A DNA stretch of 64,000 bases from Zymoseptoria tritici IPO323 (taxonomy: Eukaryota > Ascomycota > Dothideomycetes > Mycosphaerellales > Mycosphaerellaceae). Positions 5,112 to 43,213 of the stretch are shown here, piece by piece. The notes beneath the pieces are model-generated. The model saw nothing but the letters and a program-made list of their open reading frames with translations, was not told the origin of the DNA and ran no database searches. The first letter of the stretch is position 1. The number at the start of each line of letters is the position of its first letter. Made by a program: the position numbers and the translations under genes. The stretch is from contig NC_018213.1 of assembly GCF_000219625.1 (NCBI RefSeq), positions 1 through 64,000 of the forward strand. The letters are read 5' to 3'.

Positions 5112-5183
5112 GGCTAGTTGGTCTAGTAGTATAATTTCTGACTACAAATCAGAAGGTCACAGGTTCAATTCCTGTATCAGCCT
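5112..5183 (+). tRNA. tRNA-Cys-like sequence, anticodon ACA, probably non-functional
   Basis: A 72-nt cloverleaf can be drawn. The acceptor GGCTAGT pairs with ATCAGCC with one A-C mismatch. The D-arm is GGTCTAGTAGTATAA, the anticodon stem TCTGA/TCAGA encloses CTACAAA, and the T-arm is ACAGG-TTCAATT-CCTGT. Discriminator base 73 is T, as in tRNA-Cys. The anticodon reads ACA; a G->A change from GCA (TG->TA, a RIP-type change) would explain it. It lies at the edge of a truncated copia element. A related, more damaged copy is at 15930-16006. Confidence 0.6.
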
Positions 5184-5185
5184 CT

Positions 5186-5225
5186 CTTATGTGTCTATAT
5201 TAGCTGCCTAACATAGACACATAAG
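5186..5225. repeat. Perfect 13-bp inverted repeat (hairpin)
   Basis: CTTATGTGTCTAT at 5186-5198 is matched by ATAGACACATAAG at 5213-5225 around a 14-nt loop. It lies between the tRNA-like sequence and the 3' end of the copia frame, where a copia LTR boundary is expected. A TGTGTC start on the minus strand would fit an LTR terminus. Confidence 0.7.
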
Positions 5226-6250
5226 TATCTTTTTGCTGGATTTATAGATCTATACATTAGAGGATGGTGTTTAGGGATTTTGGTTTTGTTAGACAGTCTG
5301 CAAGCTGCATGTCTGTCCTTACAAACTCCACCTTAATACTCCCCTTGTTATGTTGTTCTCTGCAGTAATAGTTCCTGAGAGAGACATGTCTCGATCTTTT
5401 GGAGTTAGCATGGTTTTCTACAAGGCTGATAGCTGATTAATTGTCTACTTTGATAAGGATAGTAGAAATGCTTTTGGCCTAGGTAAAGGGCTAGAGCTTA
5501 TTAATAAGATTCCTCACCTAATTTACTTCTCTTGTTGCCTTAGTAAGAGAGAGGTACTCTGCCTTAGTGCTAGACAGCACTACTTCTTTCTGCAGTTAAG
5601 ATCTCTAGACAACTAGGCCTCCTGCAATTTTGCCGAACATTCCTAAGGTAGACCTAGATGTGCTAGGATTACTAGCAAAGTTAGAGTCTAAGAATGCTTT
5701 AATCTGAATTTACTCCTTAGTTTTCCTGTATACAAGGCACTTGTTAATTGTGCCTATAACATATCTCTAGATGTGTTTAGCTGCCTAAACATGCAAAGGT
5801 CCTAGGTTCTAAAGGAACCTTGCATAGTAGTTAACAGCAAAACTAATGTCTGGTCTAGTATAGTTTAACAGATGTTGCAGTTCCCTAATAATCTTGTTAA
5901 AGAGATTATAGTCCTCCTTTGTTCCCTTATCCTAGAGGGGTTTAAGGAGGGTGTTAAGGGGGTACTTAACACTCTTTGCATTGCTAAGACTATGTCCTTA
6001 AAGTTTGTCTCTAGAATAGTGTTCCTAAGAGATAGACATAGAGCTATCTTTCCCTTCCTTTAGGTAAAGTCTAAGAAAGACATTAGTATTAACAACCTTA
6101 ATTGTGTACTTCTGCTCCAATCCCTTAATTAGCTTGTTAATCTTATGGTCTGACTGTCTAAAGATCTGGAAGTTATCTATATGAAGGAGAACAAGGATGC
6201 CTTTCCCTTGAAAGAGGCAAGCATCGCTAACAGTTCTTGTTAGACTAAGG
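5226..6250 (-). pseudogene. Ty1/copia pol remnant: C-terminal reverse transcriptase and RNase H
   Basis: The minus strand reads as copia Pol from the late RT region to the end of RNase H. Recognisable pieces in order are DACLFQ, then ILVLLHIDN (the YVDD block, changed), FLRLYLKE, RPDISFAVNYYARFL, AFLDSNFAS, STKAEYLSL, KRSRHVSLRNYYCRE and DMQLADCLTKP. All are canonical copia landmarks. The frame is broken by many TAG codons. It is 5'-truncated exactly where the 185-bp repeat resumes (6251), so no gag, protease, integrase or 5' LTR is present. It is dead, but less RIP-mutated than neighbouring elements. Confidence 0.85.
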
Positions 6251-14340: not shown

Positions 14341-14360
14341 TTAGGGTTAGGGTTATAGGG
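14341..14360 (-). repeat. Interstitial telomere tract in inverse orientation (TTAGGGTTAGGG)
   Basis: The plus strand reads TTAGGGTTAGGGTTATAGGG, opposite to the chromosome-end telomere and to the other interstitial tracts. It sits exactly between the copia remnant and an unrelated decayed frame. Confidence 0.85.
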
Positions 14361-16401: not shown

Positions 16402-16416
16402 AACCCTAACCCTAAG
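16402..16416 (+). repeat. Interstitial telomere tract (AACCCTAACCCTAAG)
   Basis: Two CCCTAA units in the same orientation as the chromosome-end telomere, joining unrelated sequences. Confidence 0.8.
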
Positions 16417-20900: not shown

Positions 20901-21853
20901 AACTGTGCTAGCTAAAGGAACGGCTCGTAGAATCGACGATATTCCAGTGCAGGCGTTCCCAGCTCGTACTAATAACTAAATAGAGCGGACGCTTTCGACT
21001 GCAGCTTCGATTAAATGCAGATGCTACCGGCAAAATCTGTAAAGTCCAGGTCGCCGTACCTACTAATAGCTAAGATCTCGAACTGTACGCCCTACACGTA
21101 GCGCTTTTTGTTGCCTACCGACAGAATGCCATCGAAACAGAACTCTGCATAGTTTAATTGCCGCAGTTTCTTAAGAGTGACGAGGTCCGATGCGCGTCGT
21201 CCGTCCGCTATATATACCGAGAATTAATCGAGTTTGAAAGTAGCACATTCCAGAGTTTCGGTGCTAGCAGACTTCGCAGCTGCGAAGAAGCCTACACTCA
21301 AGTCTAGGCTTACTTCGACCTCGTTCACAGGTTGCAAAGGAGGTTTGTATCCGTAGTAAGCGCTTCTCGGAAATGCTGGTCCTGCAATAGAGATGTGGCT
21401 TAAGTAGCGAAGCTACTGTCGTTTCCCGGAACGAGCTATGGCCTTAGGCTCTGCTCTAGCAGCAGGCTCGTCCCCTAGTTCTGTTTCGGTCGCTAGAGGA
21501 GTAAGTGCAGTCCTAAGCCTTTATTGTCTGGGCGTACGCAGTAGGCCCTAGTCCTTAACTTCCCGATCTCCGACTGTTTAGCTCGTCTGCTCCTTGCCCG
21601 ATTCTATCTTATACTAAACCGCTCTCTGCACTCCATCTTCTTCTTGTTGTTTCGACTCGCCTCGGTCCTACTTAGAAGCCGCAGGACTAATCACAATCGC
21701 ATTGCTTAGGGAAGCTCTAGCGCGCAAAATGTCTATCTGCAATTGTCCATTCTAAAGCCGCGGCTTCTTAGAAGGCCTCGAAGTAGGTCCTACTACAATG
21801 TTGTCCTCGTCATCCTTAATAACAATCGTGTCGCTGCTAATCTGTCTCTTCAT
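17987..21853 (-). pseudogene. dim-2: DIM-2-type DNA (cytosine-5) methyltransferase, full-length RIP-inactivated copy
   Basis: One continuous minus frame of 1,289 codons runs from ATG at 21853 (MKRQISSDTIVIKDDED) to TGA at 17987, with no frameshift but many stops, almost all TAG. The domain order matches Neurospora DIM-2: an N-terminal conserved region (DQFSVYIADGRRASDLVTL, FCFDGILSVG), a BAH-like region ending at about 19820 (CQYKHDVPIFDECRSKYVIS), then the catalytic domain with motif I FYGGGTFDCGLEEAGI (about 19480-19530), motif IV GGSPCPGFSML (about 19265-19300), motif VI, a target-recognition region, FPTIVTKTAIGD (motif IX region) and KIVGNSVNRKVAL (motif X). Motif VI reads KNV instead of ENV. 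The codon is 19163-19165 and a plus-strand C->T at a CA site explains Glu->Lys, which removes the catalytic Glu. The active enzyme would methylate cytosines in RIP-mutated DNA; this copy cannot. It is flanked by direct repeats, and a 74-bp piece is at 2543-2616. Confidence 0.93.
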
Positions 21854-22344
21854 AGTTGCCGTGCTACTTAATGCCGTCGTATGCGAGGTAGTAATAGGGT
21901 TAAGAATGCCGCTGTCTCGCTACAAAGGCGCTATGTTCTTTTCGTTGCTCGAAGCAGTCCGTCCGCGGTAAGTGTGCCAAATCGCACAATGCGAGTGCTA
22001 GAGCTACAAGTAAAGTCCAAGAGTGAATGCACCAACTATTTAACTTACAAGCCGTGCACGCAGTGTAATAATCTGCCGAAGCAAAGAAGAAATAGCAGAC
22101 CAAGATATCCGCAAAACGAATATCCGTAGAGGTAAAAAGGAATGCGCGCAACTTGCCGGTAAAACGTTACTTCGTAAGGTAGTTAATAAAGTGTAGTCTG
22201 GAAGCTTTGAAGTGCGACCAAGGATGTTCCAGCTATTAACTTTTAACCGCGCCTGCACCTTAATGCCCGTAATGGCCGCCATCGCGAATAGCATGTGTTA
22301 GCGCTGTCAAATTCAAACAGTGGAAGTAAGACAGATTATATTCG

Positions 22345-25872: not shown

Positions 25873-25937
25873 GGTTCGTCGTTTTCGACCTTTCTGAACA
25901 ACGAGGACATAGGCGGAAGGGCTACGGAGGGACAGGA

Positions 25938-26617
25938 TGGTTAAGAGGAAGCGCGGAGGAGATGAGGTCCAGCGAGTTATCCAAGTATAGATTTGATCCG
26001 GACCGGTCCGGCTCCTCTGATTCGTCGACTGCAAACTCTGAGCCCCACGTCTTGGTTAATTGACCAAGGTGGGTCCGTGTCCGGTTGTGTGGACGAATCG
26101 GCCGCGACAGGAGGGCCGCTGCGTCCTCCCCTGCCCATTGGCTGGCCGCAAACTCTAAGCCCCACGTCTTGGTTAATTGACCAAGGTGGGTCCGTGCCCG
26201 GTCACGTAGGCCCAGAAGCGCACTGCTGAACTGTCCTACCCGGACTCCTCCCTCCCTTCTACGACCTCCTCCGCGGTAATTGCCTCTATCTCCTGCACGG
26301 CGAACTCCTCCGTCTCGTCCGCCTCGACGCGGATTTCGTTAAATCCGAGTCTGCTTAAGGGTAAAACAAGCTCTTATAGATACGACATCGAAGATTTTTA
26401 ATAGACAGTTCTTCTCGTAATTGCCCGGTCTCGGAGCCCGTCTTTGTTGCGAAAGAAACCGTCACAAGGTTCAGAAGTAAGGTTTTCCAAGTATGCGACG
26501 AGCGTCGGATTCGTCTTGCTGCCCCGACTTGCCGGCAGACCCTTTACGAAGGATTTTCGGGTTTCGACCACAACTAACAACACCCGAGCAAGACATAGTA
26601 CTGCCGCGGAAGAGGAT
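25938..26617 (+). repeat. 680-bp repeat family, unit 1
   Basis: Starts GATGGTTAAGAGGAAGCGCG. It holds two copies of a segment with GCAAACTCTGAGCCCCACGT followed by a near-perfect palindrome CTTGGTTAATTGACCAAG (26051-26068 and 26168-26185), then a TCCTCCGCGGTAATTGCC block and an AT-rich block ending in CTTGCCGGCAGACCC. The short open frames in it repeat with the unit and are not supported as genes. Confidence 0.85.
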
Positions 26618-27214
26618 AGTTAAGAGGAAGCGCGGAGGAGATGAGGTCCAGCGAGTTATCCAAGTATAGATTCGATCCAGACCGGTCCGGCTCCTCTAAT
26701 TCGTCGACCGCAAACTCTGAGCCCTACGTCTTGGTCAATTAACCAAGGTGGGTCTGTGTCCGGTCGCGTAGACGAATCGGCCGCGACGGGAGGGCCGCTA
26801 CGTCCTCCCCTGCCCATTGGCTGGCTGCAAACTCTGAGCCCCACGTCTTGGTCAATTAACTAAGGTGGGTCCGTGCCCGGTCACGTAGGCCCAGAAGCGC
26901 ACTACTGAACTGTCCCACCCGGACTCCTCCCTCCCTTCTACGACCTCCTCCGCGGTAATTGCCTCTATCTCCTGCACGGCGAACTCCTCCGTCTCGTCCG
27001 CCTCGACGCGGATTTCGTTAAATCCGAGTCTGCTCGAGGGTAAAACAAGCTCTTATAGATACGACATGGAAGATTTTTAATAGACAGTTCTTCTCGTAAT
27101 TGCCCGGTCTCGGAGCCTATCTTTGTTGCGAAAGAAACCGTTACAAGGTTCAGAAGTGAGGTTTTCCAAGTATGCGACGAGCGTCGGATTCGTCTTGCTG
27201 CCCTAACTTGCCGG
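26618..27214 (+). repeat. 680-bp repeat family, unit 2 (split by a hAT element)
   Basis: Starts GATAGTTAAGAGGAAGCGCG at 26617 and follows unit 1 closely, with palindromes at 26730-26747 and 26847-26864. It is interrupted at CTTGCCGG (27207-27214) by the hAT insertion and resumes at 28205. Confidence 0.85.
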
Positions 27215-28204
27215 CAGTAAGCTTGTTATATTGGATTGTATTGTATATAAGGGTGGTGACAATACAATACAACGTGTATCTTGGCAACATATAGTGGATA
27301 TTTACTGTATACAACACTCTTAGACCTTATCGTCCACTACTGTTGCTTATAAGTCTCCTTAAGCAGTGCAGAAGGTTGTAAAGCCGGCTGTTGTATCGCT
27401 TATGAATGAGCTTGTTGTCTGACCATCTATAGACTTCTTAATGTCCTCGTCGTCGTCAAATGCTAGTGTTGTTGCTCCGGCTCTTGTTGTCTTAATTAGA
27501 GGTCCATATGCACTGCGAAGGAACGCATAAGCCTCGATAATATCGCCATAGAGCTATAAACGGCGGTAGTTAATTATATCTCTGCCGGAGCTGAATAAGC
27601 GCTTAGGGTTGTCGCTCATGAGGGGGACTAAAAGGCAGTCGAGTGCCATTCGTAAGAGGCATAGCTACTGACGGCGACGAGCCATCTACCAAGCAATAGC
27701 GTCGAATAGTAGTATGCGTTCGCACAACGAGTGTATTTAGTGCCCTTGATCTGAGAGGAGTCCGGCTAAAGGGCCTTATCGAATATAGCGCTGCTCTCAC
27801 AGAGCGTAACATAGTCGGAGGTGCGATCCTTGCGTGGTGGCAGTTGCCAGCCTGCTGTCGAGGGTGTTAAGGCTGAAGATAAGGCCATGTTTATGGCAAT
27901 AGTGTTGTTACGATAGTCACAAGAGTAGTAGATTGATAGCTAACTTCTCAGGTGCAGACTCTGTTTATACAGTGCAACAACACCGGCGCAGACTCCGAAT
28001 ACACCTCTAAAAACACCACCTCCGAATACACCACCATAAACATGGCCCTTAAAACCATGCCTACCATCACCGGATACAGCTATATTATATCCAGCCGTAC
28101 AGCACGACAATACAATACACCAGCCTTAAGGTAAGGATCTACGACAGCTGTATATACGACAATACAATACAATACAACAAGGATATAATACAACAAGCTC
28201 ACTG
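27215..28204 (-). mobile_element. hAT-family DNA transposon, internally deleted, 990 bp
   Basis: The element is bracketed by an exact 8-bp target duplication CTTGCCGG (27207-27214 and 28205-28212). Its ends are inverted: CAGTAAGCTTGTTATATT at the left against CAGTGAGCTTGTTGTATT (reverse complement) at the right, followed inside by TTGTATTGTATTG runs. An 8-bp duplication with CAG-starting termini is typical of hAT. It inserted into unit 2 of the 680-bp repeat. Length shows it is a non-autonomous remnant. Confidence 0.92.
27440..27640 (-). pseudogene. hAT transposase C-terminal dimerisation-domain remnant
   Basis: The minus strand reads SDNPKRLFSSGRDIINYRR, then LYGDIIEAYAFLRSAYGPL. This corresponds to the hAT C-terminal block (xPxRLFSxAxxIxxxRRxxLxxxxIExxxxLxxW). 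The catalytic domain is missing. The open minus frame 27812-27603 is in another frame and is not the protein. Confidence 0.7.
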
Positions 28205-28896
28205 CTTGCCGGCAGACCCTTTATGAAGGATTTTCGGGTTTCGACCACAACTAACAACACCCGAGCAAGACATAGTACTACCGCGGAAGAGGATAGTTAA
28301 GAGGAAGCGCGGAGGAGATAAGGTCCAGCGAGTTATCCAAGTATAGATTCGATCCAGACCGGTCCGGCTCCTCTAATTCGTCGACCGCAAACTCTAAGCC
28401 CTACGTCTTAGTTAATTAACCAAGGTGGGTCCGTGTCCGGTCGCGTAGATAAATCGGCCGCGACGGGAGGGCCGCTGCGTCCTCCCCTACCCATTAGCTG
28501 GCCGCAAACTCTAAGCCCCACGTCTTGGTCAATTAACCAAGGTAGGTCCGTGCCTGGTCACGTGGACATAGAAGCGCACTACTGAACTTTCCTACCCGGA
28601 CTCCTCCCTCTCTGCTACGACCTCGCCGTCTCCTCCGCTCCGAACTCCTCCATCTCCTAGACTCCGACGTAGATTTCGTACAATCCAAATCTGCTAGCGG
28701 GCGAAGGAAGATCTAATATATACGATATCGAAGATTAAAAACAGACAATTCTTCTTGTCATAACCCGCACTCGGAGCTTATATTAGTTTCGAAAGAACCC
28801 GTCGTAAGGTTAAGAAGTTGGGTTCTAAAAGTATACGACGAGCCTCGAATTCGTCTGTTCGCCCCGACTGGTCGGCAGACCCTTAAGAAGGATTTT
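28205..28896 (+). repeat. 680-bp repeat family, end of unit 2 and unit 3
   Basis: After the hAT target duplication unit 2 finishes, and unit 3 starts GATAGTTAAGAGGAAGCGCG at about 28292, with palindromes at 28407-28424 and 28523-28540. Its right half is more diverged than in units 1 and 2. Confidence 0.8.
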
Positions 28897-29200
28897 CGAT
28901 AGTTAAGAGGAAGCGCGAAGGAGACGAGGTCTAGCGAGTTGTCGAAAGAGCCCTGCTCCAGACCCGTCCGGCTCCTCTAATTAGTCGACCGCAAACTCTG
29001 AGCCCTACGCCTTAGTTAATTAACCAAGGAGGGTCCGTGTCCGGTCGCTGGGACCAATTGGCGCACCGCTGAACTTCCCGCTAAGACTCCTCCCTCTCTG
29101 CTACAACCTCGCCGTCTCCTCCGCTAGGATTGCCTCTATGGCCTACACTGCGAACTGCTCTACCTCCTCCGCCTAAACGCGGATTGTATCGCTTTCCGGA
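28897..29200 (+). repeat. 680-bp repeat family, unit 4 (truncated)
   Basis: Starts GATAGTTAAGAGGAAGCGCG, contains one palindrome CTTAGTTAATTAACCAAG (29011-29028) and stops at about 29200. Confidence 0.75.
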
Positions 29201-29269: not shown

Positions 29270-29950
29270 GTGGGCGGATTTCTCGCCCAATGCCGGGATG
29301 GGCGGATTTCTAGCCCACCTTGCCGCTAGGCGGATTTCTCGCCTAATGCCGGGATGGGTAGATTTCCAGCCCACCTTGCTGCTGGGCGGATTTCTCGCCT
29401 AATACCGGGATAGGCGGATTTCCAGCCCACCTTGCCGCTAGGCGGATTTCTCGCCTAATGCCGGGATAGGTGGATTTCCAGCCCACCTTGCTGCTAGGCG
29501 GATTTCTCGCCCAATGCCGGGATGGGTGGATTTCCAGCCCACCTTGCCGCTAGGCGGATTTTCCGCCCAATGCCGGGATAGGCGGCCTCCGCCTAAAAGC
29601 AAAACGGAAACTTCCAAGAATTATAGCTTTCTGCTTTCACCTCTCGTATCTCGCGCACATAGCTAATTTCAAAGATTCTAAGAACACGGAGAGTAACTCT
29701 AGTATAAGAAGTTCCTTTCTATGTGTCTATATTTAATTTAAGATCGTTGTTGTAGTGTTAAAAAAGGTCGAGAAACTTGAGGTGTCGCTACTAGACTATA
29801 TGTCGGAATTTCCGTTTTAGCTTCCACACCTTAGGCGGATTTCCAGCCCACCTTGCCGCTAGGCGGATTTCTCGCCTAATGCCGGGATAGGTAGATTTCC
29901 AGCCCACCTTGCCGCTAGGCGGATTTTCCGCCCAATGCTAGGATAGGCGG
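29270..29950. repeat. 57-bp minisatellite (GGCGGATTTCTCGCCTAATG), split by an insert
   Basis: Units alternate GGCGGATTTCTCGCCTAATG and GGATTTCCAGCCCACCTTGC with CCGGGATA and CGCTA linkers. About 5.5 units lie at 29270-29595 and 2 more at 29831-29950. Each half-unit holds GGCGGATTTCTCGCC, which is partly palindromic. The gap is the 218-bp insert at 29601-29818. Confidence 0.9.
29601..29818. mobile_element. MITE-like insert of 218 bp
   Basis: Termini AAAACGGAAACTTCC (29601) and GGAATTTCCGTTTT (ending 29818) form an inverted repeat of about 14 bp with one mismatch. AGC flanks both sides and may be a 3-bp target duplication. The inside is AT-rich and non-coding. It interrupts the 57-bp minisatellite, which proves insertion. 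The superfamily is not determined. Confidence 0.6.
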
Positions 29951-30695
29951 AGAGCTAACCCAGCAGCCAAACACGTAAGCGGCATACACCTCCTACTCGA
30001 CGCTTAAGAACAGCCACCGCAGAAACCTCTACGGACATAGAAGTCCTACGATATAAGAGCCTGCGACGCTAGCGCTACTACGTGCAGCTTTGTTACGCTT
30101 TCCACCGGGTGCCCGATAAGGAGGGGGTAGTGCTGAATGTAGGCAGGAATTACTACGACGGGAGAGCACTACACCACGTCGTCGAGCTCCTCGTTAGCAA
30201 AAATACGCGGATGGCGAGTCCAACGTAGATTTAACGGCCTACAGAGGACGGCTCGGGCACGAGAACGGCACGAGGGAGAACAGATTAACGAGAGTAGGGC
30301 GGAGGAGGAGGAGGGAGAAGACGTAGACACAGGAGATTCGAAAGCGAGACGGTAAGGCAACAGACGAGACCGGAGACGAGCTAGGCGAAGGGAGAGGAAG
30401 ACGGGAGGATAAAGAGGATATAGGCCTAGCAGGACGGGATAGCATCGAGATAAGGACGATGTAACGATGCCTAGAGAGGACGATATAACGATGCCGGGGA
30501 TAGCCCATTCTCGGACCGGGGAGTAGAGGAAGAGACGACGAGCAGGACGAGTAAGTACGGAGGGGAGGGTAGCCCTTTATACCACCACCTCGTCGAGTGC
30601 GACGATTATAATCAAGCCGTGGACCCTAGTAGACGGCGAGATAAGAGGATGGCCATCGACGATAACTATCGACGATCGTAAGGCTAACCCTGCTC
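29951..30695 (+). pseudogene. Decayed region, short unknown coding remnant
   Basis: The plus strand at 30030-30230 reads RYYVQLCYAFHRVPDKEGVV, LNVGRNYYDGRALHHVVELL and VSKNTRM, which looks like real protein but matches no family I know. After 30240 the sequence is Arg/Glu-rich and GA-biased, without a convincing frame. It may include the 5' UTR of LINE copy A. Confidence 0.35.
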
Positions 30696-32652
30696 GTGAT
30701 TGTAAGAAGGACGACCACACCCCGGCCCTATAAGAGCCGGATGTGTTCCCCCCTCTCTAGAGCCTCGCTACTACCCGTTTACGCTCTTAGCCTCGGTTTT
30801 CCTCTACGGTGGAGACTTCGAACTATCCGTAAGCACTCTCTGCCTAGGTTGCCCTCTCCTTCGAGTGCCTCCTACTACCGATCCCGACTCGTTACTTCGC
30901 CGACCTCTCCCTCGACGTTCCTCGTAGCTTCCTCCTCCCCTCTACCCTCGGCGTCGCCCTCTCTGCCCTCTAACCCTCGGATGTTATCCAAACTGTCGAC
31001 AAGCGCGGTACGGCCCTAGGAAGGTCTGACGGCCTTTGCCGACGCCCTCTGGGAGCTCTATAAGGGCGTCATCCCGTGCGGCGGCGAGATCGACTACTTT
31101 GGCGTCCTAAGGAACAAGACCGGACATCCCAACACGGAAGGACGATACTACTGCACCTTCGAGTGTAAGAAGTGTTGTACGAACAAAAGGCGTACCGTTA
31201 AGGCGTAGATTAAGAGCGTCACTGCGGAAATCGGCCGGTCGAGACTTACGCTTGTGGCGCAAACGATCCTGGACTAGCTTCGTAACTGTAGTAAGGATAC
31301 GGCCTAGCTCGTTGCCTAGATTGAAGATCGACTAGAGGAGCCGGTGACCGCGCTAGCGAAGCGAGCACTAGAGTCCGAGTCTTCGATCGAGACGGCGTCC
31401 GCGGATTGTTGGTTAAGGAAGACGATCCGGCGTGAGGAGGACGTGTTCCTAGATATTGTCTCTATAGATCTTCCTTCTACGAGCATCCCTTCGACGAAGA
31501 TTCCGTCGACGAATCTTCCTTCTACGGACATTCCTTCTACGGACATTCCTTCTACGAGGCTCCCTACCGACATCCCTTTGACTAGGCTGCCTTCGATCGA
31601 CATCCCCTTAACGATCCCTACTATCCTCGTCCCGGAGACCGACCCTGCCGCGATTCCAGTCGACCCTGTACCGAAGCCTATCGTACAGATACCCTTCTTT
31701 TAGAAATACGCCGAGGCCTGCCTGATCTGCGCGGCGAAGGAGACGAAGCGATCGGTTAACCGCCTCCTATACACCCTGGGCGAAGGTCCTCTTTATTGCT
31801 CGGACGAAGGTCCTCCTTATTGCTCGAGTGAAGATCCTCCGGACCCTCCTAGACCTAAAGACGGCGCGAGCGAGCACCGGAAGGAATCGAGACCCGCTAC
31901 GAACGGAGCCCCACCGCCTAGCTGGAACGACGCGCGAGCAGAGTCGATCGAGGAGAAACAGCGGAGGAAGAGTCTTCCGCACTATTCCGTCGAGGAGAAG
32001 CGCGGAGGGAAGAGTGTTCCTCCCGAGGTGCGACCCTACGACCTCTTTCCTAGTAAGGACTACGACCTTCTCTCGCCCTTTTCTACGGCATCCGTCCCTC
32101 CTCCCCTTATGCCCTCTCCGGACACGCCCTCTCCCGCAAAGGCGAAGGAGCTTACTCCCTTTCCGTTCTCTTCGTCGGGACAGTAGAGGCTATAGATCGC
32201 GGACCTAGCCGCGCGTACCGAACCGGTAACGCCCTCCCTAAAAGCGAAGACCTTCCGGATTCTCTCTGCGGAGCCGAAGCCACGAACAAAACCGACCTCT
32301 CCTTTAGCGGACCATAAGCGGAAACTACTCTAACCCTGCTCTGTAAACCTTCCCGGGAGATCGTCTACGGATTAGGTCCGCGAGTTCGTCGATCGCTATC
32401 GAGAAGCTAATAACAAATTCAAAAGGCAAGTAGTACGGCAGAAGGCAAAGAGTGCCGGCGTCTTCGACGAGTTCAAAGCCGAGCTAATATAGCAGGGGCT
32501 AGAAGAGGAGCCGGCGGGACAGGAGGATAGCCCAGGCTCGAAGAGAGAGACTCGAGGAGCATCCTCTAAGAGAGAGAGTCGAGAGGCATCCGGGGGAGGC
32601 GAGTCCTCTTGCGGGTCGCGAGACCAGGAGGAATGCTAGGATTGGATATATT
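30696..32652 (+). pseudogene. LINE copy A ORF1 (Gag-like)
   Basis: About 650 codons in one frame. A Ser/Pro/Arg-rich N-terminus is followed by ADALWELYKGVIPCGGEIDY and a Cys cluster (YYCTFECKKCC, CxxxCxxCC). A repeat STDIPSTDIPSTRLPTDIP (31470-31620) leads to a long disordered, charged C-terminal part (EKRGGKSVPPEVRPYDLFPS, PFSTASVPPPLMPSPDTPS). Stops are almost all TAG. Role by analogy with LINE ORF1: RNA binding and nuclear targeting. No RRM or classic CCHC knuckle is seen. The end overlaps the start of ORF2. Confidence 0.65.
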
Positions 32653-35600
32653 AACATCCGGGGCTTAGGGGATAATAGGTAGCCGATCCTGGCGGCGCTA
32701 ATTAACGACGACGTCCTCGACTACCTCTTTATCGTCGAGACCTAGTTCGTCGAGCATAAGAAGCGCCGAGCGGATTACCGCGTAATTGCGACTACGGTGA
32801 AGCCCGATATAGTGCCGAGAAAGGGTCGCTTGGGCTGTAGGATTCTAGTAATAGGGACAGTACGCGCGCGAAGTTGGCTCACCGGCGAGGCGCAGATCAT
32901 TAGGACGGATGCTATAACCCTACCGACGGACCAGGGAACGATTAGCGGAGTCTACTTTCCCCCCAAGCGGAAGCCGGATGAGGTCCGGTCTACGCTTTAG
33001 GCAGTTGCCGGCTCCGATGTCGTTCTCGGAGATATTAACGTCCGCTTTAGTAAGATGTCTCTCTAGAGCAGGAAGGCGTTGCCGCTTCCAAGACGGAAGG
33101 TCGTCTCGCAATAGATCGAGGACTCCGCGATAACCTATCTGAAGCCGATCTAGGAGCCGATTACGATTGCGGACGCCGTATGTGAGAAACAACTAACGAC
33201 TGACCACTGCTTTGTCCGCCGGACGCTGCCGCATGCGACGCTAGCTCTACCGCGACCGACGGAGAAGATGAATACCGACTATATCTACTAGCTCTACCTC
33301 CAGCTGGACCCGACTGCGGGTACTCCAGGTAGATTAGCCGTGCCGTATCAACTTCGACGCTATGCAATAAGCCGGCTGAACGACGACGATACGGCGCAGG
33401 CGCTCTGCTATAGCTGGGAGAGAAGGGCGCGGCATCGACGGCATCTGTACTATATAAGCGCCGATGTAGACAAGCGGAATGCGGAAATCGTGTCGCTCTG
33501 CCAGCAGGTAAGCGAAGCCGTGCTAGGACTCGCCTCTGCGCGTCGTCGAAATCGTCCTCCGGGTAGACGAAAGGCGGAGGATATAAGTAACGGAGGCGGA
33601 GAGAAGAAGAATGGAGGCGGAGAGAAGAAGGATCGAGACGGAGAGAAGAAGGATAGAGGTAGAGAGAAGAACAACGGGCCTCGAAAGGCGATAACAGACC
33701 TAAAGCGAAAGCGAGCTAAGGATGATGACAACGCCGCTCGCAAGCCAAAGCCGCTACGCCGCCGTAGCAAGAAGAAGAAGGACTAGCGTCTTAAGGCGAT
33801 GGCGAAGCCGAATCTAGACGCCGATGGCGGGACGCTCGAGACAGTCCGTCTCTATAAGAGAGCGCAGCGCCGCGCGAACGAGAACATACCGCTGGTGCCG
33901 ACCCCGGCGGGGAAGGCGAGAGGGATGACGGCAATCGACGAGGTAACAGAGGGATTTGCCGGTCGATTTGTCTTAACAGCGACCCTCCTGGTACAGGAGA
34001 TGTTTCCTATCGACGATCGATCTACCTCGCTCTCCTTCTCGATCGACGAGATAATATAGGAGCTTACCTACTAGGATGCTACGAAGGCCTGCGGAAACGA
34101 TAGGGTACACATCTGTCTAATAAAAACCCTCGCGACGACGAGCTTCCTCCGGATCCTGGCCGCCCTCTACAATTCCTGTCTCCGGAATAGTAAGACGCCG
34201 CGGAGCTAGAACGAAACTGTCGTCTGTCTGGTCGTTAAGGACAAGACCCGACGGGAGGATGGTACAATACCGGCGAAGGACGCCAACAACGTTCGTCCGA
34301 TCTCGCTGGTAACGATGTTTCGAAAGGTCTTCGAGCGCCTGCTCCTCCAGCGCTTTAATAGCAGGACATAGGCGAGGATGCATCCTAACCAGGCGGGATT
34401 TCGAAGTTACCACTCTACTATAACGAACGCTGCGGTCGTCCACGCCCTCCTCGAATCGAGCCGGATTACACACGCTATGTTCCTCGATTTTCAAGCTGCC
34501 TTTAACGTCGTAGATTATGTACTGCTCGCGGACGTTCTACGCCGGCGGAGATGTCCGGAGAACATGCTAGCTCTAATTGCGAGCCTCTGCTTTTTCGACG
34601 TCTGGTCCTTTGTCGTTTCGGATAGTACGGCTTCTTAGTGGTTTCCGCGGACGAGGGGAGTTCTGCAGGGCTTACCCCTCTCGCCCTATCTGTTTAACAT
34701 CTTTATCGATAGCTTGCTCGAGGACTTGAATCGACCTAGGACACTCGCCCTAGCCGGCTCTTCCGACGTAATGCCCGCGGCGCCGCCGATTCCTTGCGCG
34801 CTGTTCTTCGCCGATAATAGTGTTCTCCTCGCTAGCAACTTAGACGAGGTGCGTCTACTAATCCAGATCCTCGAGTGCTGGTCCTCTGCCAACCGCATCG
34901 CCCTAAACATTAAAAAATGCGCCTATCTAGCTTCGGCGTCTTCGTAGGAGGCGATCTACCTCTTTAGTGCGGAGGTACCGAGGAGAGAGGTATATACCTA
35001 CCTCGGATTTCCCGTGACGGCGCGAGGGATTAACTTGAGGAGGCACCTTAAGAGCCGGCTCGAACAGGCTAGGAAACGAAGCGACTTCCTAACCCTCGAC
35101 GCGGACGGTTAGGGCTTTACGCATCGCCTGCGAGTCTATCGGCAGTATCTCGCACTAATGTTCGAGTATAGCGCGCCTCTCCTCGCGGCGTTTGCCGAGG
35201 ACTCTCCTAAGTTCTGGGACGAGACGACTAAGGACGTTGCGAAGCTAACAAAGTGGATCTCGGGTTATACTTCTAACCCTTACTTTACTCGCAATCTCCT
35301 AGGAATCTCCGCCCTACCCTCGCGATTTAAGGTACTAAAAACTAGCTTTCAGGTTGTAAAGAAGCACACTCCGGAAGAAAGTCCGCTGCGGAAGTTAGGA
35401 TTACTAATCTGGAAACCCAAAGCGTTCTTCCGGCGCTTAACGGAGGACAAGCTCTACGAGAAGTACCGCGAGACACCCGAGTCCTAGCCTCGCGACCGAA
35501 GCCTTAGCGAAGACCGCCGTTCTGTCCAGCGGTTCCTACGCTAGGAGAGAGAGGAAGATATGGCCGAAGAGGCCAAGAAGTGGAGCCTAACCCGGATTAT

Positions 35601-35990
35601 ACCGGGAGAAAGCCGCCTAAAGCAGGACTTACGAGGAGCCGATCACTTTTTAAAGGCGCCGCGGTCCTTCCAGAAGCGCTTCCTCTAGTATCGGCGTAGA
35701 ACCTTCTATACCTATAGTTTCTGCGTCTGTACGAGCAAATTCATCTAAGGACACGAGACTTGCTACTAGGAAAACAGGACGAGCTGGCTCTCGAGGAAGG
35801 AACGACGGGCGAAGCAGAAGATGCATACGAAAATAGGCACTACGAACACGAAGTTTACTAAGGTAGACTTCCTTCTAAATACAGGATGCTAGGAGCGAGC
35901 TAACGAGATCCTTGAGCGAATCTCGACGAAGATTACAAAGGAGGAAGCTGCGAAGGAGGAAGCGGAGGAAGCGGCGGCACAGACCTAGTG
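32640..35990 (+). pseudogene. LINE copy A ORF2 (AP endonuclease and reverse transcriptase)
   Basis: The N-terminus shows AP-endonuclease blocks RIGYINIRGLGDNR, YLFIVET, SGVYFPPKRKPDEV, VVLGDINVRFSKM and TTDHCFVRRTLP. A Lys/Glu-rich GEKKDR repeat linker (about 33590-33680) follows. RT blocks are NNVRPISLVTMFRKVFERLL, HPNQAGFRSYHSTITNAAVV, MFLDFQAAFNVVDYVLLADV, GVLQGLPLSPYLFNIFIDSL and FFADNSVLLAS. The catalytic pair should be FADD; here codon 34816-34818 is AAT, so the second Asp is Asn. The C-terminal Cys/His cluster CVCTSKFI, GHETC lies near 35730-35765. There are many TAG stops; the protein is dead. No RNase H and no restriction-like endonuclease is seen. Confidence 0.85.
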
Positions 35991-35992
35991 CA

Positions 35993-36150
35993 CACTGTCC
36001 TAAGTAGGACGTTAAAAGGCTCGGTCCGATGAGTAGGACGTAAAGTAGCTCCGTCCGATAAGTAGGACGTAAAGTGGCTCAGTCCGATGGGTAGGACGTA
36101 AAAAGGCTCCGTCCGATAGGTAGGACGTAAAGTGGCTCTGTCGACCCGGG
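35993..36150. repeat. 27-bp tandem repeat in LINE A 3' region
   Basis: Units of GTAGGACGTAAAGTGGCTCN plus GTCCGAT, about 5.5 copies. The same repeat has more copies in LINE B (41252-41485), so the number varies between copies, as in 3' regions of other telomeric LINEs and DNA satellites. Confidence 0.9.
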
Positions 36151-37058
36151 ACGTAAAAGCGGAGATCATCCCTCGAGGATAAATTAGGCGTTTACCCTAT
36201 CGAAAAGGAGTCTCTTCCCTCGAGATGAAAGTAGGCGTCCGATCGGTAGGACGTTAAAAGGCTGCGCTGCGACGTAGGAGACGTAGGCGACTAGCGAGGC
36301 CCGGACTAGCTCCGCACTGGACGATCAACTCTATCCGGAAGGCCTAGCAGTAGATGTAAGGCGTGTACCCTAGATCTGCGGCTGCTTCCTCTTAAAGCTG
36401 GGGAGCAGGAGGAAGAAAACTAGTACCTCTGCAGAGCAGTAGGAGGCTTAGAGGAATGCGAAGGCAACAGCGTAGTAGGGGAGAGGAGTAGACGACGACG
36501 ATCGCTAGAGGAGGAATTCTAGCCGAAGGGAAGACAGCTCTCCCCAAACTGTTTAGGAAGCACTTATAGACTAGTGTGTAAGCGGCTCGATCGGAATCAA
36601 ATATCTCCGACAGTAGATACGCCAGACGGAGGGAGGACAGAGCTCTACCGAACGGTCTTAAAGCGGGATGTTCCCCCTTAACGAGACGGGGTTACAGTTT
36701 CGGGCGGATGAGGAGACGCACACCTCGTCCGTCACCTGGGAGGTTTGGAAACCCAAGGTACGATAGATAGTGAGCAATTGCCGGAGCGATATTGTGCGTT
36801 AGGATGCGGACTAGCCCATCGGTGGTCTCTCTTTTTGGCGGTTGGTTAACTCGGGAGATGATAAAAAGGACACCGTAAAACGTAGTTGGGCTGGGAGTAG
36901 CTGCGGTGCTGTGCATCGCGAGGCGCTTTACATAGGAGCGTGGGTCTGTTTCCTCCCCTCTAAAGACGGCCAAAAGAGCCGGGAGCAAGGGCTTGGATGG
37001 GGCTTCAGTTCAGATCAGGTGCAAAGGTAGACTAGCCTATATAAACAAGTACAATAAA

Positions 37059-37077
37059 CCCCTAACCCTAACCCTAA
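37059..37077 (+). repeat. Interstitial telomere tract between LINE A and LINE B
   Basis: CCCCTAACCCTAACCCTAA, three units, directly after the LINE A 3' end and directly before the truncated LINE B 5' end. Same orientation as the chromosome-end telomere. Confidence 0.97.
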
Positions 37078-37860
37078 GCGCGAGCGAGCACCGGAAGGAA
37101 TCGAGACCCGCCACGAACGGAGCCCTACCGCCTGGCCGGAACAACGCGCGAGCGGAGTCGATCGAGGAGAGACAGCGGAGGAAGAGTCTTCTGCACTGTT
37201 CTGTTAAGGAGAAGCGCGGAGGGAAGAGTGTTCCTCCCGAGGTGCGACCCTACGACCTCTTTCCTAGTAAGGACTACGACCTTCTCTCGCCCTTTTCTAC
37301 AGCATCCGTCCCTCCTCCCCTCGTGCCCTCTCTAGACACGCCCTCTCCCGCAAAGGCGAAGGAGCTTACTCCCTTTCCGTTCTCTTCGTCAGGACGGTAG
37401 AGGCTGTAGGTTACGGACCTAGCCGCGCGTGCCGAACCGGTAACGCCCTCCCTAAAAGCGAAGACCTTCCGGATTCTCTCCGCGGAGCCGAAGCTACGAA
37501 CGAAACCGACCTCTTCTTTAGCGGACCGTAAGCGGAAACCACTCTAACCCCACTCTGTAAACCTTCCTAGGAGATCGTCTGCGGATTAGGTCTACGAGTT
37601 CGTCGATCGCTATCGAGAAGCCGATAACAAATTTAAAAGGCAAGTAGTGCGGCAGAAGGCGAAGAGTACTAGCGTCTTCGACAAGTTCAAAGCCGAGCTA
37701 ATACGGCAGGGGCTAGAAGGGGAGCCGGCGGGACGGGAGGATAGCCTAGGCTCGAAGAGAGAGACTTAGGGAGCATCCTCTAAGAGAGAGAGTCGAGAGG
37801 CATCTAGGGAAGGCGAGTCCTCTCGCGGGTCGCGAGACCAGGAGGAATGCTAGGATTGGA
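37078..37860 (+). pseudogene. LINE copy B ORF1 (C-terminal part)
   Basis: Starts at ASEHRKESRPATNG and continues to REASREGESSR near 37850, matching the last 260 codons of copy A ORF1. It is open from 36993 to 37400 and then broken by TAG. The N-terminal Cys cluster is absent because of the 5' truncation. Confidence 0.7.
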
Positions 37861-40800
37861 TGTATTAACATCTAGGGCTTAGGGGATAATAGGTAGCCGA
37901 TCCTAGCGGCGCTAATTGACGACGACGTCCTTAACTACCTCTTTATCGTCGAGACCTGGTTCGTCGAGTATAAGAAGCGCCGAGCAGATTACTGCGTAAT
38001 TGCGACTACAGTAAAGCCCGATACGGTGCCGAGAAAGGGTCGCTTGGGCTCTAGGATTCTAGTAATGGGGACGGTACGCGCGCGAAGTTAGCTTACCGGC
38101 GAGGCGCAGATCATTAGGACAGACGCTATAACCCTGCCGACGGACTGGGGAACGATTAGCGGAGTCTACTTTCCCCCCAAGCGGAAGCCGGATAAGGTCC
38201 AGTCTACGCTTGAGGCGGTTGCCGGCTCCGATGTCGTTCTCGGAGATATTAACGTCCACTTTAGTAAGATGTCTCTCTAGAGCGGGAAGGTGTTGCTGCT
38301 TCCGAGACGGAAGGTCGTCTCGCGATAGATCGAGGACTCCGCGATAACCTATCTGATACCGATCCAGGAGCCGATTACGATTGCGGACACTGTATGCGAG
38401 AAATAACTGACAACTAACTACTGCTTTGTCCGCCGGACGCTGCCGCATGCGACGCTAGCTCTACCGCGACCGACGGAGAAGATGAATACCGACTATGTCT
38501 ACTAGCTCTACCTCCAGCTAGACCCGACTACGGGTACTCCAGGTAGATTAGCCGTGCCGTATCAACTTCGACGCTATATAATAAGCCGGCTAAACGACGA
38601 CGATACGGCGTAGGCGCTCTGCTATAGCTAGGAGAGAAGGGTGCGGCATCGACGGCATCTGTACTATATGAGCGCCGATGTGGACAAGTAGAATGCGGAA
38701 ATTGTGTTGCTCTACCAGCAGGTAAGCGAAGCTGTGCTAGGACTCGCCTCTGCGCGTTGTCGAAATTGTCCTCCGGGTAGACGAAAGGCGGAGGATATAA
38801 GTGACGGAGGTAGAGAGAAGAAGAATCGAGAGGGAGAGAAGAAGGATCGAGAGGGAGAGAAGAAGGATCGAGAGGGAGAGAAGAAGGATCGAGAGGGAGA
38901 GAAGAAGGATCGAGAGGGAGAGAAGAACAACAGGCCTCGAAAGGCGATAACAGACCTAAAGCGAAAGCGAGCCGAGGATAATAACAACGCTGCTCGCAAG
39001 CCAAAGCAGCTACGCCGCTGTAGCAAGAAGAAGAAGGACTGGCGTCTTAAGGCAATAGCGAAGCCGAATCCGGACGCTGATAGCGGGACGCTCGAGACGG
39101 TCCGTCTCTATAAGAGAGCGTAGCACTGCGCGAACGAGAACACACCGCTAGTGCCGACCCCGGCGGGGAAGGCGAGAGGGATAACAGCAATCGACGAGGT
39201 AACGGAGGGATTTGCCAGTCGATTCGTCTCGACAGCGACCCTCCCGGTACAGGAGATGTTTCCTATCGACGATCGATCCACCTCGCTCTCCTTCTCGATC
39301 GACGAGATAATGCAGGAGCTTACCTACTAGGATGCTATAAAGGCCTGCGGAAACAATGGGGTACACATCCGTCTAATAAAAACCCTCGCGACGACGAGCT
39401 TCCTCCGGATCCTGGCCGCCCTCTACAATTCCTATCTCCGGAATAGTAAGACGCCGCGGAGCTAGAACGAAACTGTTATCTGTCTGGTCGTTAAGGACAA
39501 GACCCGACGGGAGGATAGTACGATGCCGGCGAAGGACGCTAACAACGTTCGTTTAATCTCGCTAGTAACGATGTTTTAAAAGGTCTTCGAGCGCCTGCTC
39601 CTCCAGCGCTTTTATAGCAGGACATAGGCGAGGATGCATCCTAACTAGGCGGGATTTCGAAGTTACTACTCTACTATAACGAACGCCGCGGTTGTCCACG
39701 CCCTCCTCGAATCGAGCCGGATTACACACGCTATGTTCCTCGATTTTTAAGCCGCCTTTGACGTCGTCGATCATGTACTGCTTACAGACGTTCTATGCCG
39801 GCAGAGATGTCCGGAGAACATGCTAGCTCTAATTGCGAGCCTCTGCTTTTTCGATGTCTAGTCCTTTGTCGTTTCAGATAGTACAGCTTCTCGGTAGTTT
39901 CCGCGGACGAGGGGAGTTCTGCAGGGCTTACCCCTCTTGCCCTATCTGTTTAACATCTTCATTAATAGCTTGCTCGAGGACTTGAATCGACCTAGGACAC
40001 TCGCCCTAGCCGGCTCTTCCAACGTGATGCCCGCGGCGCCGCCGATTCCTCGCGCGCTGTTCTTTGCTAATGATAGTGTTCTCCTCGCTAGCGACTTAGA
40101 CGAGGTGCGTGTACTAATCCAGATCCTCGAGCGCTGGTCCTCCGCTAACCGCATCGCCCTGAATATTAAAAAATGCGCCTATCTAGCTCCGGCGTCTTCG
40201 CAGGAGGCGATCTACCTCTTTAGTGCGGAGGTACCGAGGAGAGAGGTATATACCTACCTCGGATTTCCCGTAACGGCGCGAGGGATTGACTTGAGGAGGC
40301 ACCTTAAGAGCCGGCTCGAACAGGCCGGGAAACGAAGCGACTTCCTGACCCTCGACGCGGACGGTTGGGGCTTCGCGCATCGCCTGCGAGTCTATCGGCA
40401 GTATCTCGCACCGATGTTCGAGTATGGCGCGCCTCTCCTTGCGGCGTTTGCTAAGGACTCTCCTAAGTTCTGGGACGAGACGACCAAGGACGTTGCGAAG
40501 CTAACGAAGTGGATCTCAGGTTATGCTTCTAACCCTCACTTTACTCGCAATCTCCTGGGAATCTCCGCCCTACCCTTGCGATTTAAGGCACTAAAAACTG
40601 GCTTTCAGGTTATAAAGAAGCACGCTCCGGAAGAAAGTCCGCTGCGGAAGTTGGAATTACTAATCTGGAAACCCAAAGCGTTCTTCCGGCGCTTAACGGA
40701 GGACAAGCTCTACGAGAAGTACCGCGAGACACCCGAGTCCTAGCCTCGCGACCGAAGCCTCAGCGAAGACCGCCGTTCTGTCTAGCGGTTCCTGCGCTAG

Positions 40801-41245
40801 GAGAGAGAGGAAGATATAGCCAAAGAGGCCAAGAAGTGGAGCCTAACCCGGATTATACCGGGAGAAAGCCGCCTAAAGCGGGACTTACAAGGAGCCGATC
40901 ACTTTTTAAAGGCGCCGCGGTCCTTCCAGAAGCGCTTCCTCCAGTATCGGCGTGGAACCTTCTATACCTATGGTTTCTGCGTCTGTACGAGCAAATTCAT
41001 CTGAGGACACGAGACTTGCTACTAGGAAAACAGGACGAGCTGGCTCTCGAGGAAGGAACGACAGGCGAAGCAGAAGATGCATACGAAAATAGGCACTACG
41101 AACACGAAGTTTACCGAGGTAGACTTCCTTCTAAATATAGGATGCTAGGAGCGAGCTAACGAGATCCTCGAGCAAATCTCGACCAAGATTACGAAGGAGG
41201 AAGCTACGAAGGAGGAAGCGGAGGAAGCGGCGGCACAGACCTAGT
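37850..41245 (+). pseudogene. LINE copy B ORF2 (AP endonuclease and reverse transcriptase)
   Basis: Same architecture as copy A ORF2. The longest intact piece is 39937-40743 (268 codons), from LPYLFNIFINSLLEDL through the RT palm and thumb to KLYEKYRETPES. The palm motif reads FFANDSVLLAS. Here the first Asp of FADD is Asn (codon 40069-40071), whereas in copy A it is the second, so the two copies were inactivated independently. The GEKKDREGEKKDR linker repeat (38810-38930) has more units than in A. The C-terminal CVCTSKFI..GHETC cluster is retained. Confidence 0.85.
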
Positions 41246-41251
41246 GCACAC

Positions 41252-41485
41252 TGTCCTGAGTAGGACGTTAAAAGGCTCCGTCCGATGAGTAGGACGTTAA
41301 AAGGCTCCGTCCAATGGGTAGGACGTAAAGTGGCTCCGTCCAATAGGTAGGACGTTAAAAGGCTCTGTCCGATGGGTAGGACGTAAAGTGGCTCGGTCCG
41401 ATGAGTAGGACGTAAAGTAGCTCGGTCCGATAGGTAGGACGTAAAGTGGCTCCGTCCGATGGGTAGGACGTAAAGTAGCTCCGTC
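41252..41485. repeat. 27-bp tandem repeat in LINE B 3' region
   Basis: About nine units alternating AGGACGTTAAAAGGCTCCGT and AGGACGTAAAGTGGCTCCGT with CCGATGGGT linkers. Open minus frames across it (41131-41512) are repeat by-products. Confidence 0.9.
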
Positions 41486-42402
41486 GACCCGGGACGCAAA
41501 AGCGGAGATCATCCCTCGAGGATAAATTAGGCGTTTACCCTATCGAAAAGGAGTCTCTTCCCTCGAGATGAAAGTAGGCGTCCGATCGGTAGGACGTTAA
41601 AAGGCTGCGCTGCGACATGGGAGACGTAGGCGACTAGCGAGGCCCGGACTGGCTCCGCACCGGACGATCAACTCTATCCGGAAGGCCCAGCGGTAGATGT
41701 AAGGTGTGTACCCTAGATCTGCGGCTGCTTCCTCTCAAAGCCGGGGAGCGGGAGGAAGAAAACTAGTACCTCTACAGAGTAGTAGGAGGCTTGGAGGAAT
41801 GCGAAGGCAACAGCGTAGTAGGGGAGAGGAGTGGACGACGACGATCGCTAGAGGAGGAATTCTAGCCGAAGGGAAGACGGCTCTCCCCAAACCGTTTAGG
41901 AAGCACTTGTGGACTGGTATGCAAGCGGCTCGATCGGAATCGAATATCTCCGACAGTAGATACGCCGGACGGAGGGAGGACAGAGCTCTACCGAACAGTC
42001 TTAAAGCGGGATGTTCCCCCTTAACGAGACGGGGTTACAGTTTCGGGCGGATAAGGAGACGCACACCTCGTCCGTTACCTGGGAGGTTTGGAAACCTAAG
42101 GTACGATAGACGGTAAGCGATTGCCGGAGCGATATTGTACGTTAGGATGCGGATTAGCCCATCGGTGGTCTCTCTTTTTGGCGGTTTGGTTAACTCGGGA
42201 GATAGTAAAAAGGACACCGTAAAACGTAGTTGGGCTAGGAGTAGCTGCGGTGCTGTGCATCGCGAGGCGCTTTACGTGGGAGCGTAGGTCTATTTCCTCC
42301 CCTCTAAAGACGGCCAAAAGAGCCGGGAGCAAGGGCTTGGATGGGGCTTTAGTTCAGATCAGGTGCAAAGGTAGACTAGCCTATATAAACAAGTACAATG
42401 AA

Positions 42403-42429
42403 CCCCCTAACCCTAAACCCTAACCCTAA
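42403..42429 (+). repeat. Interstitial telomere tract between LINE B and LINE C
   Basis: CCCCTAACCCTAAACCCTAA plus CCCTAA: four units, one with an extra A. It directly follows the LINE B 3' end and precedes the truncated LINE C. Confidence 0.97.
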
Positions 42430-43191
42430 GGCCCGGACTGGCTCCGCACCGGACGATCAACTCTATCCGGAAGGCCCAGCGGTGGATGTGAGGCGTGTAC
42501 CCTAGATCTGTGGCTGCTTCCTCTCAAAGCCGGGGAGCGGGAGGAAGAAAACTGGTACCTCTGTAGAGCAGTAGGAGGCTTAGAGGAAAGCGAAGGCGAC
42601 GGCGTAGTAGGGGAGAGGAGTAGACGACGACGATCGCTAGAGGAGGAATTCTAGCCGAAGGGAAGACGGCTCTCCCTAAACCGTTCGGGAAGCACTTATA
42701 GACTAGTATACAAGCGGCTCGATCGGAATCGAATGTCTCCGACAGTAGATACGCCGGACGGAGGGAGGACAGAGCTCCACCGGACAGTCTTAAAGCGGGA
42801 TGTTCCCCCTTAACGAGACGGGGTTACAGTTTCGGGCGGATAAGGAGACGCACACCTCGTCCGTCACCTGGGAGGTTTGGAAACCTAAGGTACAATAGAC
42901 GGTAAGCAATTGCCGGAGCGATATTGTGCGTTAGGATGCGGACTAGCCTATCGGTAGTCTCTCTTTTTGGCGGATTAGTTAACTTGGGAGATGGTAAAAA
43001 GGACACCGTAAAACGTAGTTGGGCTGGGAGTAGCTGCGGTGCCGTGCATCGCGAGGCGCTTTACGTGGGAGCGTAGGTCTGTTTCCTCCCCTCTAAAGAC
43101 GGCCAAAAGAGCCGGGAGCAAGGGCTTGGATAGGGCTTCAGTTCAGATCAGGTGCAAAGGTAGACTAGCCTATATAAACAAGTACAATGAA
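42430..43191 (+). mobile_element. Telomere-associated LINE, copy C (3' end only)
   Basis: Starts GGCCCGGACTGGCTCCGCAC, equal to 41641 of copy B, and runs 762 bp to the common 3' end AAGTACAATGAAC. It contains only the 3' non-coding region. Its strong 5' truncation and its own telomere tract show an independent integration. Confidence 0.92.
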
Positions 43192-43213
43192 CCCCCTAAC
43201 CCTAACCCTAACC
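43192..43213 (+). repeat. Interstitial telomere tract at the inner edge of the LINE array
   Basis: CCCCCTAACCCTAACCCTAACC follows LINE C and abuts unrelated sequence (TAGTCTAAGTTC). This is the most centromere-proximal telomere tract seen, and is best explained as a former chromosome end. Confidence 0.95.

Follow-up and report, generated by a model that had tools for sequence, protein, structure and literature searches.

Chromosome ends of Zymoseptoria tritici edged by the tail of a telomere-associated LINE and carrying copies of dim2

The left end of contig 6 (C6) of Zymoseptoria tritici IPO323 carries three copies of a long interspersed nuclear element (LINE) in one orientation, each with its 3′ end joined to CCCTAA telomere repeats. 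Here, the window is the whole stretch analyzed, bases 1-64000 of that contig, in a genome of 39,686,251 bases and 21 contigs. We propose that telomere-primed retrotransposition founded junctions of this kind and that recombination at the interstitial telomere tracts then copied whole chromosome ends, including copies of the DNA methyltransferase gene dim2, a reading to which we give a probability of roughly 0.57. The evidence comes from a genome-wide map of the LINE, the polarity and the junctions of its copies, the apurinic/apyrimidinic (AP) endonuclease fold predicted for a homologous protein, and near-identical terminal blocks on the left ends of chromosomes 9 and 21.

The original prediction, made from the letters of the window, described three same-sense copies with centromere-facing 3′ ends on telomere repeats, and this is what is seen at the three tracts: the 3′ ends point away from the terminal telomere at base 1. 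The copies show 91-95% pairwise identity. Their 5′ ends differ, as was also claimed, copies 2 and 3 beginning at different points of the element. The 5196 aligned bases of copies 1 and 2 contain 313 transitions but 16 transversions, a pattern like that of repeat-induced point mutation (RIP), and the stop codons in the reverse transcriptase (RT) frames of the LINE copies are mainly TAG, with some TAA and few TGA. The array comprises the following features (ORF, open reading frame; UTR, untranslated region):

31002-32635 (+): candidate ORF1 frame of LINE copy 1, containing stops
32632-33320 (+): AP-endonuclease-like domain of ORF2, with motifs IN.RGL, ..ETW, GDIN and TDHCFV; stops break the frame
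34267-35013 (+): RT domain, Pfam RVT_1, 93.6 bits; TAG stops break the frame
36001-36142 and, in copy 2, 41260-41485 (+): 29-bp tandem repeat of the LINE 3′ UTR
37059-37077 (+): junction 1, LINE 3′ end ACAATAAA then CCCCTAACCCTAACCCTAA (tract 37060-37077)
37078-42403 (+): LINE copy 2, 5′ truncated at the equivalent of window position 31864
42403-42429 (+): junction 2 telomere tract (tract 42405-42429)
42430-43192 (+): LINE copy 3, 0.78 kb, 5′ truncated at the equivalent of 36297
43192-43211 (+): junction 3 telomere tract (tract 43194-43211); beyond it, sequence without a match to the block

Distribution and 3′ junctions of the LINE

A genome search with the RT sequence gave 51 matches at 78-100% identity, all 51 within about 68 kb of a contig end and with the 3′ end inward; the furthest begins 67,565 bases from its end, and some of the 51 are two pieces of one copy (for example on C19L and C18R). 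In contrast, of the 27 weaker LINE matches that this search also gave, 3 lie within 70 kb of an end and 11 have the same polarity. The 3′-terminal 461 bases of the LINE found 44 genome matches, all of them close to contig ends and with the 3′ end pointing to the centromere. Junctions were read at 36 of these 44 3′ ends (30 fetched and 6 more read within the flanks of neighbours, leaving 8 unread), and all 36 have ACAAT[GA]AA followed by CCCC(C)TAACCCTA. Four further junctions from a motif search that required AACC, and one more in stretch L100, are kept outside this count. Beyond the constant LINE junction lies an irregular telomere tract of variable length and then sequence that differs between junctions. 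Checking the LINE 3′ end against the genome, as had been suggested with the original prediction, therefore gave telomere repeats in a single polarity at every junction read. At least 29 of the 42 contig ends carry an RT or a 3′ match. Confinement to chromosome ends, a constant 3′ telomere junction and one polarity, the marks of a telomere-specific LINE, were all observed.

These counts are lower bounds, the best 40 of 73 candidates having been scored in the 3′-end search and the best 78 of 120 in the RT search; for pieces of the region outside the LINE the figures were 40 of 44 (18-24 kb), 40 of 217 (10-18 kb), 27 of 55 (24-30.7 kb) and 40 of 136 (0.1-10 kb). The resulting map of units keeps 250 of 397 matches: 44/44 for the 3′ end, 51/78 for the RT, 36/36 for 30697-31700, 29/47 for the 18-24 kb piece, 18/47 for 10-18 kb, 63/82 for 24-30.7 kb and 9/63 for 0.1-10 kb. 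Left out are the self-matches of the window, the 27 weaker LINE matches, short or overlapping fragments, and nested dispersed repeats, which at about 17.24-17.80 kb and 4.90-6.25 kb also occur inside chromosomes in both orientations. After these were dropped, 1 of the 250 matches is internal, and the other 249 are all close to an end and of the expected polarity. Sizes of contigs 2, 11, 13 and 18 were those we take them to have, and served only for choosing the nearer end.

Protein class of the LINE

A LINE-type RT is borne out by RVT_1 and by the best sequence matches in the PDB, which were R2 and L1. A protein search in which 7991 candidates were scored returned 16 close relatives (38-55% identity, E 2.9e-141 or better) and 4 distant ones. 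The AP-endonuclease motifs are kept in a family alignment of 15 sequences, in which the GD.N and DH columns are invariant, and the family profile aligns to residues 13-774 of human L1 ORF2p, endonuclease included (E 2.6e-31). The frame in the window being broken, a fold was predicted for a homologue (P0001; mean predicted local distance difference test score, pLDDT, 80.8); its top match was full-length L1 ORF2p (E 1.7e-24) with a query TM-score of only 0.43, so that domain placement differs, and human APE1 and the L1 endonuclease matched lower in the list. Pfam found no endonuclease in the AP domain of the window or of two other copies, and its endonuclease matches in 2 of 8 homologues both fell below cut-off. 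Motifs, profile and homologue fold nevertheless agree in pointing to an N-terminal AP endonuclease joined to a LINE-type RT, which places the element among AP-endonuclease LINEs of the broad L1-like group.

This class, and its distinction from the restriction-like-endonuclease type of MoTeR, had been predicted from the window. The predicted endonuclease stands, whereas the ORF1 claimed with it is a weakly supported open frame, whose Pfam match, to z-alpha, lies below cut-off. The alignment ends in a CCHC-like motif without RHD when read against the quoted MoTeR/FoTeR motif, with no profile run for that domain; by these residues the LINE appears to lack the restriction-like endonuclease. Pfam scans of the window frames and of 8 homologues gave no match to GIY-YIG. 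Relatives were absent from the 27 stretches of a viral contig scan, and a genome contig scan gave 15 loci with distant RTs only (22-32% identity).

Terminal blocks, dim2 and copying between chromosome ends

The first copy of the array had been taken for a 6.4-kb element beginning at 30696, a claim that the relatives of this region contradict. The segment 30697-31700 has 35 other genome matches, and all 20 that were fetched with 300 bases upstream continue to match the window to about 30375-30404, at 89-97% identity. On many ends colinear homology extends outward to window positions 10-24 kb, and on C2R and C17L to about 135. Because homology continues outward past 30696, copy 1 forms the proximal end of a block extending to the telomere; a 6.4-kb LINE unit was rejected, there being no border at that position. 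The block in the window is made up as follows:

1-134 (+): terminal telomere (CCCTAA)n, left end of contig 6
133-495 (+): X module, telomere-adjacent, with the constant proximal end ..CTATAAGTAGG after a perfect hairpin
496-30696 (+): distal part of the terminal block, with colinear counterparts on other chromosome ends and nested dispersed repeats inside
14341-14352: interstitial TTAGGGTTAGGG tract within the terminal block
16404-16415 (+): interstitial CCCTAACCCTAA tract within the terminal block
18001-22334 (-): inactivated copy of a dim2-type DNA methyltransferase; 18001 is the query edge and the border there unproven

The outer border of the block is variable, and its inner border is the LINE tail wherever a 3′ end was found. 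Telomere repeats sit directly on a truncated block at C4L, C5L, C5R, C7L, C8L, C9L, C10R, C12R, C15L, C16R, C19R and C21L, at positions from about 10.0 to 36.8 kb, and inner units likewise begin at varied points after the preceding telomere tract. Healed junctions show weak microhomology: at least 2 nt are shared in 7 of 29, against 6% expected (p 0.0014; 3 window self-matches omitted, the tract end being set by a simple pattern). Unit starts cluster at 25327, 25372, 28682, 28723 and 28769; a discrete LINE 5′ end near 25.3 or 28.7 kb was rejected, as unit starts occur throughout, and a single giant retrotranscript appears unlikely. Just outside the LINE frames lie tandem blocks of about 680 bases (25922-29185) and a 56-base minisatellite (29273-29947), which are possibly monomers of the LINE 5′ UTR. 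The X module directly adjoins unit positions 20195 (C16L), 25567 (C3L) and 36741 (C7R), with no telomere tract in between, and may be a second end-capping element.

The dim2 copy was recognized by Pfam as DNA_methylase (PF00145, 57.7 bits), with a BAH match of 24.5 bits below cut-off. Among the best 40 of 44 candidates, the sole match to its span away from chromosome ends is C6:1266277-1270610, a position in keeping with the native dim2 locus that Moller 2021 (PMC8016269; this and the other papers cited are represented by the passages available to us) described on chromosome 6. With the division into units checked by eye against the map, 21 terminal units carry the dim2 region; the LINE lies farther in on the same unit in 19 of the 21, with a matched LINE 3′ end in 16, and the two units without it are those of C1L and C8L. 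Moller 2021 counted 23 nonfunctional dim2 copies in IPO323, found LINEs beside most extra copies, suggested transposable-element-mediated amplification, and concluded that the extra alleles do not derive from the present native allele. To this suggestion the map adds a physical unit and a border, dim2 lying within terminal blocks edged inward by the LINE tail; in the literature searched, mostly outside subscription journals, we found no report placing dim2 in LINE-bordered terminal blocks. Tentatively, and with a little under an even chance of being right, we suggest that the LINE tail makes all sequence outward of it, host genes included, a mobile end cassette, and that through tract copying dim2 reached about 21 terminal units, became exposed to RIP and was thereby lost to the fungus as its main DNA methyltransferase. 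The puzzle of dim2 amplification would thereby gain a concrete route.

The clearest case of block copying is the terminal 18.5 kb shared by C9L and C21L. The first 260 bases are identical, telomere and CCCTCA variant repeats included, and the inner stretches compared show 99.8% identity in 4668 bases (9 differences), 99.9% in 1977 (2 differences) and 100% in 500; between these stretches the two ends were mapped only. Identity ends inside the CCCTAA tract after the LINE tail, and the inner flanks are different and continuous. By comparison, median identity between RT loci is 91.3% (435 pairs among 30 loci, of the 51 matches), and the next-best pairs are neighbouring units on C2R (99.3%) and on C7R (97.2%). 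The shared block is best explained by copying from the LINE-tail tract out to the telomere; retrotransposition fits it poorly, because a telomere-capped start is not easily copied that way. A stretch of 19 kb common to chromosomes 9 and 21 was already noted by Dhillon 2014 (PMC4522978); the exact inner border is added here and is absent from the passages of that paper available to us.

Several further observations concern these regions. The tracts at 16404-16415 and 14341-14352 have opposite orientations, a hint of older junctions. Runs of CCCTCA lie between normal CCCTAA and healed breakpoints at C1L, C9L, C21L, C10R and junction C4:7603, and resemble the variant tracts at MoTeR 5′ ends. An ordinary LINE with an (AACA)n tail, useful for contrast, lies at C1:604-1409, where it interrupts the dim2 region of C1L and is flanked by a target duplication of 14 bases; it resembles window 52.8-53.7 kb, and it is also found next to LINE tails on C9L and C7L (stretches L016 near 3010 and L093 near 2250). 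The sole Rfam match in window 1-45000 is a tRNA-like sequence at 5112-5183 (51.9 bits), inside a 1.36-kb dispersed repeat at about 4895-6249.

Origin of the blocks and comparison with known elements

In the model we favour, an AP-endonuclease LINE would join telomeres by target-primed reverse transcription, leaving a fixed 3′ end on a short CCCTAA tract and often a severely 5′-truncated copy. At the interstitial telomere tracts, recombination or break-induced replication would then find a fixed inner edge: an end that had broken and healed would pair with such a tract on another end and copy everything outward to the donor telomere. Terminal blocks of up to about 27-37 kb would in this way be mobile, bounded proximally by the LINE tail and taking dead dim2 copies from end to end. 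The order of these events, the priming at telomeres, and break-induced replication in preference to other recombination routes are what we infer. Work on MoTeR offers the precedent: in Magnaporthe, the interstitial telomeres that MoTeR insertion creates are prone to breaks, and either healing or break-induced replication repairs them (Rahnama 2020, PMC7367193).

An alternative without LINE targeting is that a single ancestral insertion into a telomere was followed by breakage, healing and tract recombination. Such passive spread would account for homology that extends far past any LINE, for the block common to C9L and C21L, for ends healed outside the LINE (C8L at 10020), for a junction on C7L with a nested Tad-like LINE on its proximal side, and for the one phase common to the junctions read, as expected from shared descent. 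It is hard to reconcile with the lengths of the copies. Of the 44 units with a 3′ end, 12 have their start within the final 1.56 kb and 5 within the adjoining 3.8 kb; the other 27 begin farther out. Starts of such units run throughout 13-35 kb at 1.24 per kb, and against this background 12 units shorter than 1.56 kb compare with 1.9 expected (p about 1e-6); some starts in the map are query borders, such as 30697/30699, and with only the 10 exactly read starts p is about 4e-5. Furthermore, three very short copies stand in a row on C7R, and one of them, enclosed by telomere tracts, measures only about 15 nt. Abortive reverse transcription fits this excess more easily than does uniform erosion, and homologous LINE proteins with the same domains exist elsewhere. 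We therefore consider purely passive spread unlikely, although it is the rival with most in its favour.

The original prediction was of a telomere-targeted LINE that adds to chromosome ends, each copy an independent insertion. The fixed 3′ end, the telomere tract, the single polarity and the variable 5′ ends all agree with this, and the telomere association and polarity were borne out. Many long copies look instead like DNA-level copying of whole ends: blocks of 20-37 kb with antisense dim2 and nested repeats end at the same LINE tail, C9L and C21L agree even in their telomere-capped 5′ start and variant repeats, and unit starts do not pile up at a LINE 5′ end. Retrotransposition by itself is accordingly improbable, more so than passive spread.

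Of the remaining doubts about transposition followed by end copying, some concern the reach of the data. A matched 3′ end is lacking in 19 of the 63 mapped units, so that the CCCTAA end is not seen for every copy, and in the data of Dhillon 2014, 38 of 49 truncated copies had telomere repeats. The own 5′ end of the LINE is undefined by this one genome, and both transposition and recombination are deduced from the sequence of that genome. Preferential end breakage beside interstitial telomeres could also yield an excess of short copies. Among the 30 RT loci, C9L/C21L is the only near-identical inter-chromosomal pair, and its telomere tracts are equal to the base, which is odd in living telomeres and possibly an assembly artefact.

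Had the sequence of one end been used to finish the other, this best case of block copying would be unreal; the identity of the first 260 bases, telomere length included, would suit that, as would the lack of one telomere (end unstated) on chromosome 21 in the finished assembly (Dhillon 2014). If a single sequence had served for both ends, the 9 mismatches in 4668 bases and the 2 in 1977 would be hard to explain; the inner flanks differ and are continuous, and long end blocks are common to other chromosome pairs too. An artefact is thus a very slight prospect. Least credible of all, and rejected here, is the label of an endonuclease-lacking Penelope-like element (Dhillon 2014): the 3′ telomere repeats and subtelomeric confinement do resemble telomeric Penelope elements, but RVT_1 is of LINE type, the AP endonuclease and RT of the homologues match L1 ORF2p and the catalytic AP motifs are conserved across the family, which refutes the label for the window sequence if that is the element so named.

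The family is not undescribed, as the original prediction had supposed it could be. Dhillon 2014 reported a 'family 4', Penelope-like, lacking an endonuclease and 3.4-3.5 kb at full length, and Schotanus 2015 (PMC4589918) an L1-like RIL2 in 34 of 42 subtelomeres. The window LINE is almost certainly both of these, matched by location, abundance and class rather than by sequence: like them, it is found only in subtelomeres, has telomere repeats at a 3′ end that points away from the telomere, and forms tandem truncated copies. Unlike 'family 4' as described, its ORF2 has an AP endonuclease and its homology runs without a border at 6.4 kb. New here are the AP endonuclease with a LINE RT, the block continuing beyond 30696 through dim2, the C9L/C21L border and the excess of short copies. 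In the literature searched no AP-endonuclease LINE has been described at fungal telomeres.

MoTeR of Magnaporthe and FoTeR of Fusarium (PMC12857005), both of the restriction-like endonuclease type, are the nearest fungal counterparts. In these telomere LINEs, too, the 5′ end faces the terminus and the 3′ junctions carry telomere repeats; the window LINE is set apart by its N-terminal AP endonuclease and by terminal blocks that carry a host gene. With this class assignment the Penelope label in print is corrected, and a fungal AP-endonuclease telomere LINE takes its place beside MoTeR and FoTeR. AP-endonuclease LINEs are found at telomeres in SART/TRAS of Bombyx and Zepp of Chlorella, which belong to other lineages and hosts. 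Yeast Y′ elements are terminal blocks lying between short telomere tracts and spread through recombination; in Z. tritici, unlike in yeast, the inner border of the block is a LINE 3′ end. What look like mobile chromosome ends in this fungus have the LINE tail as their inner edge.

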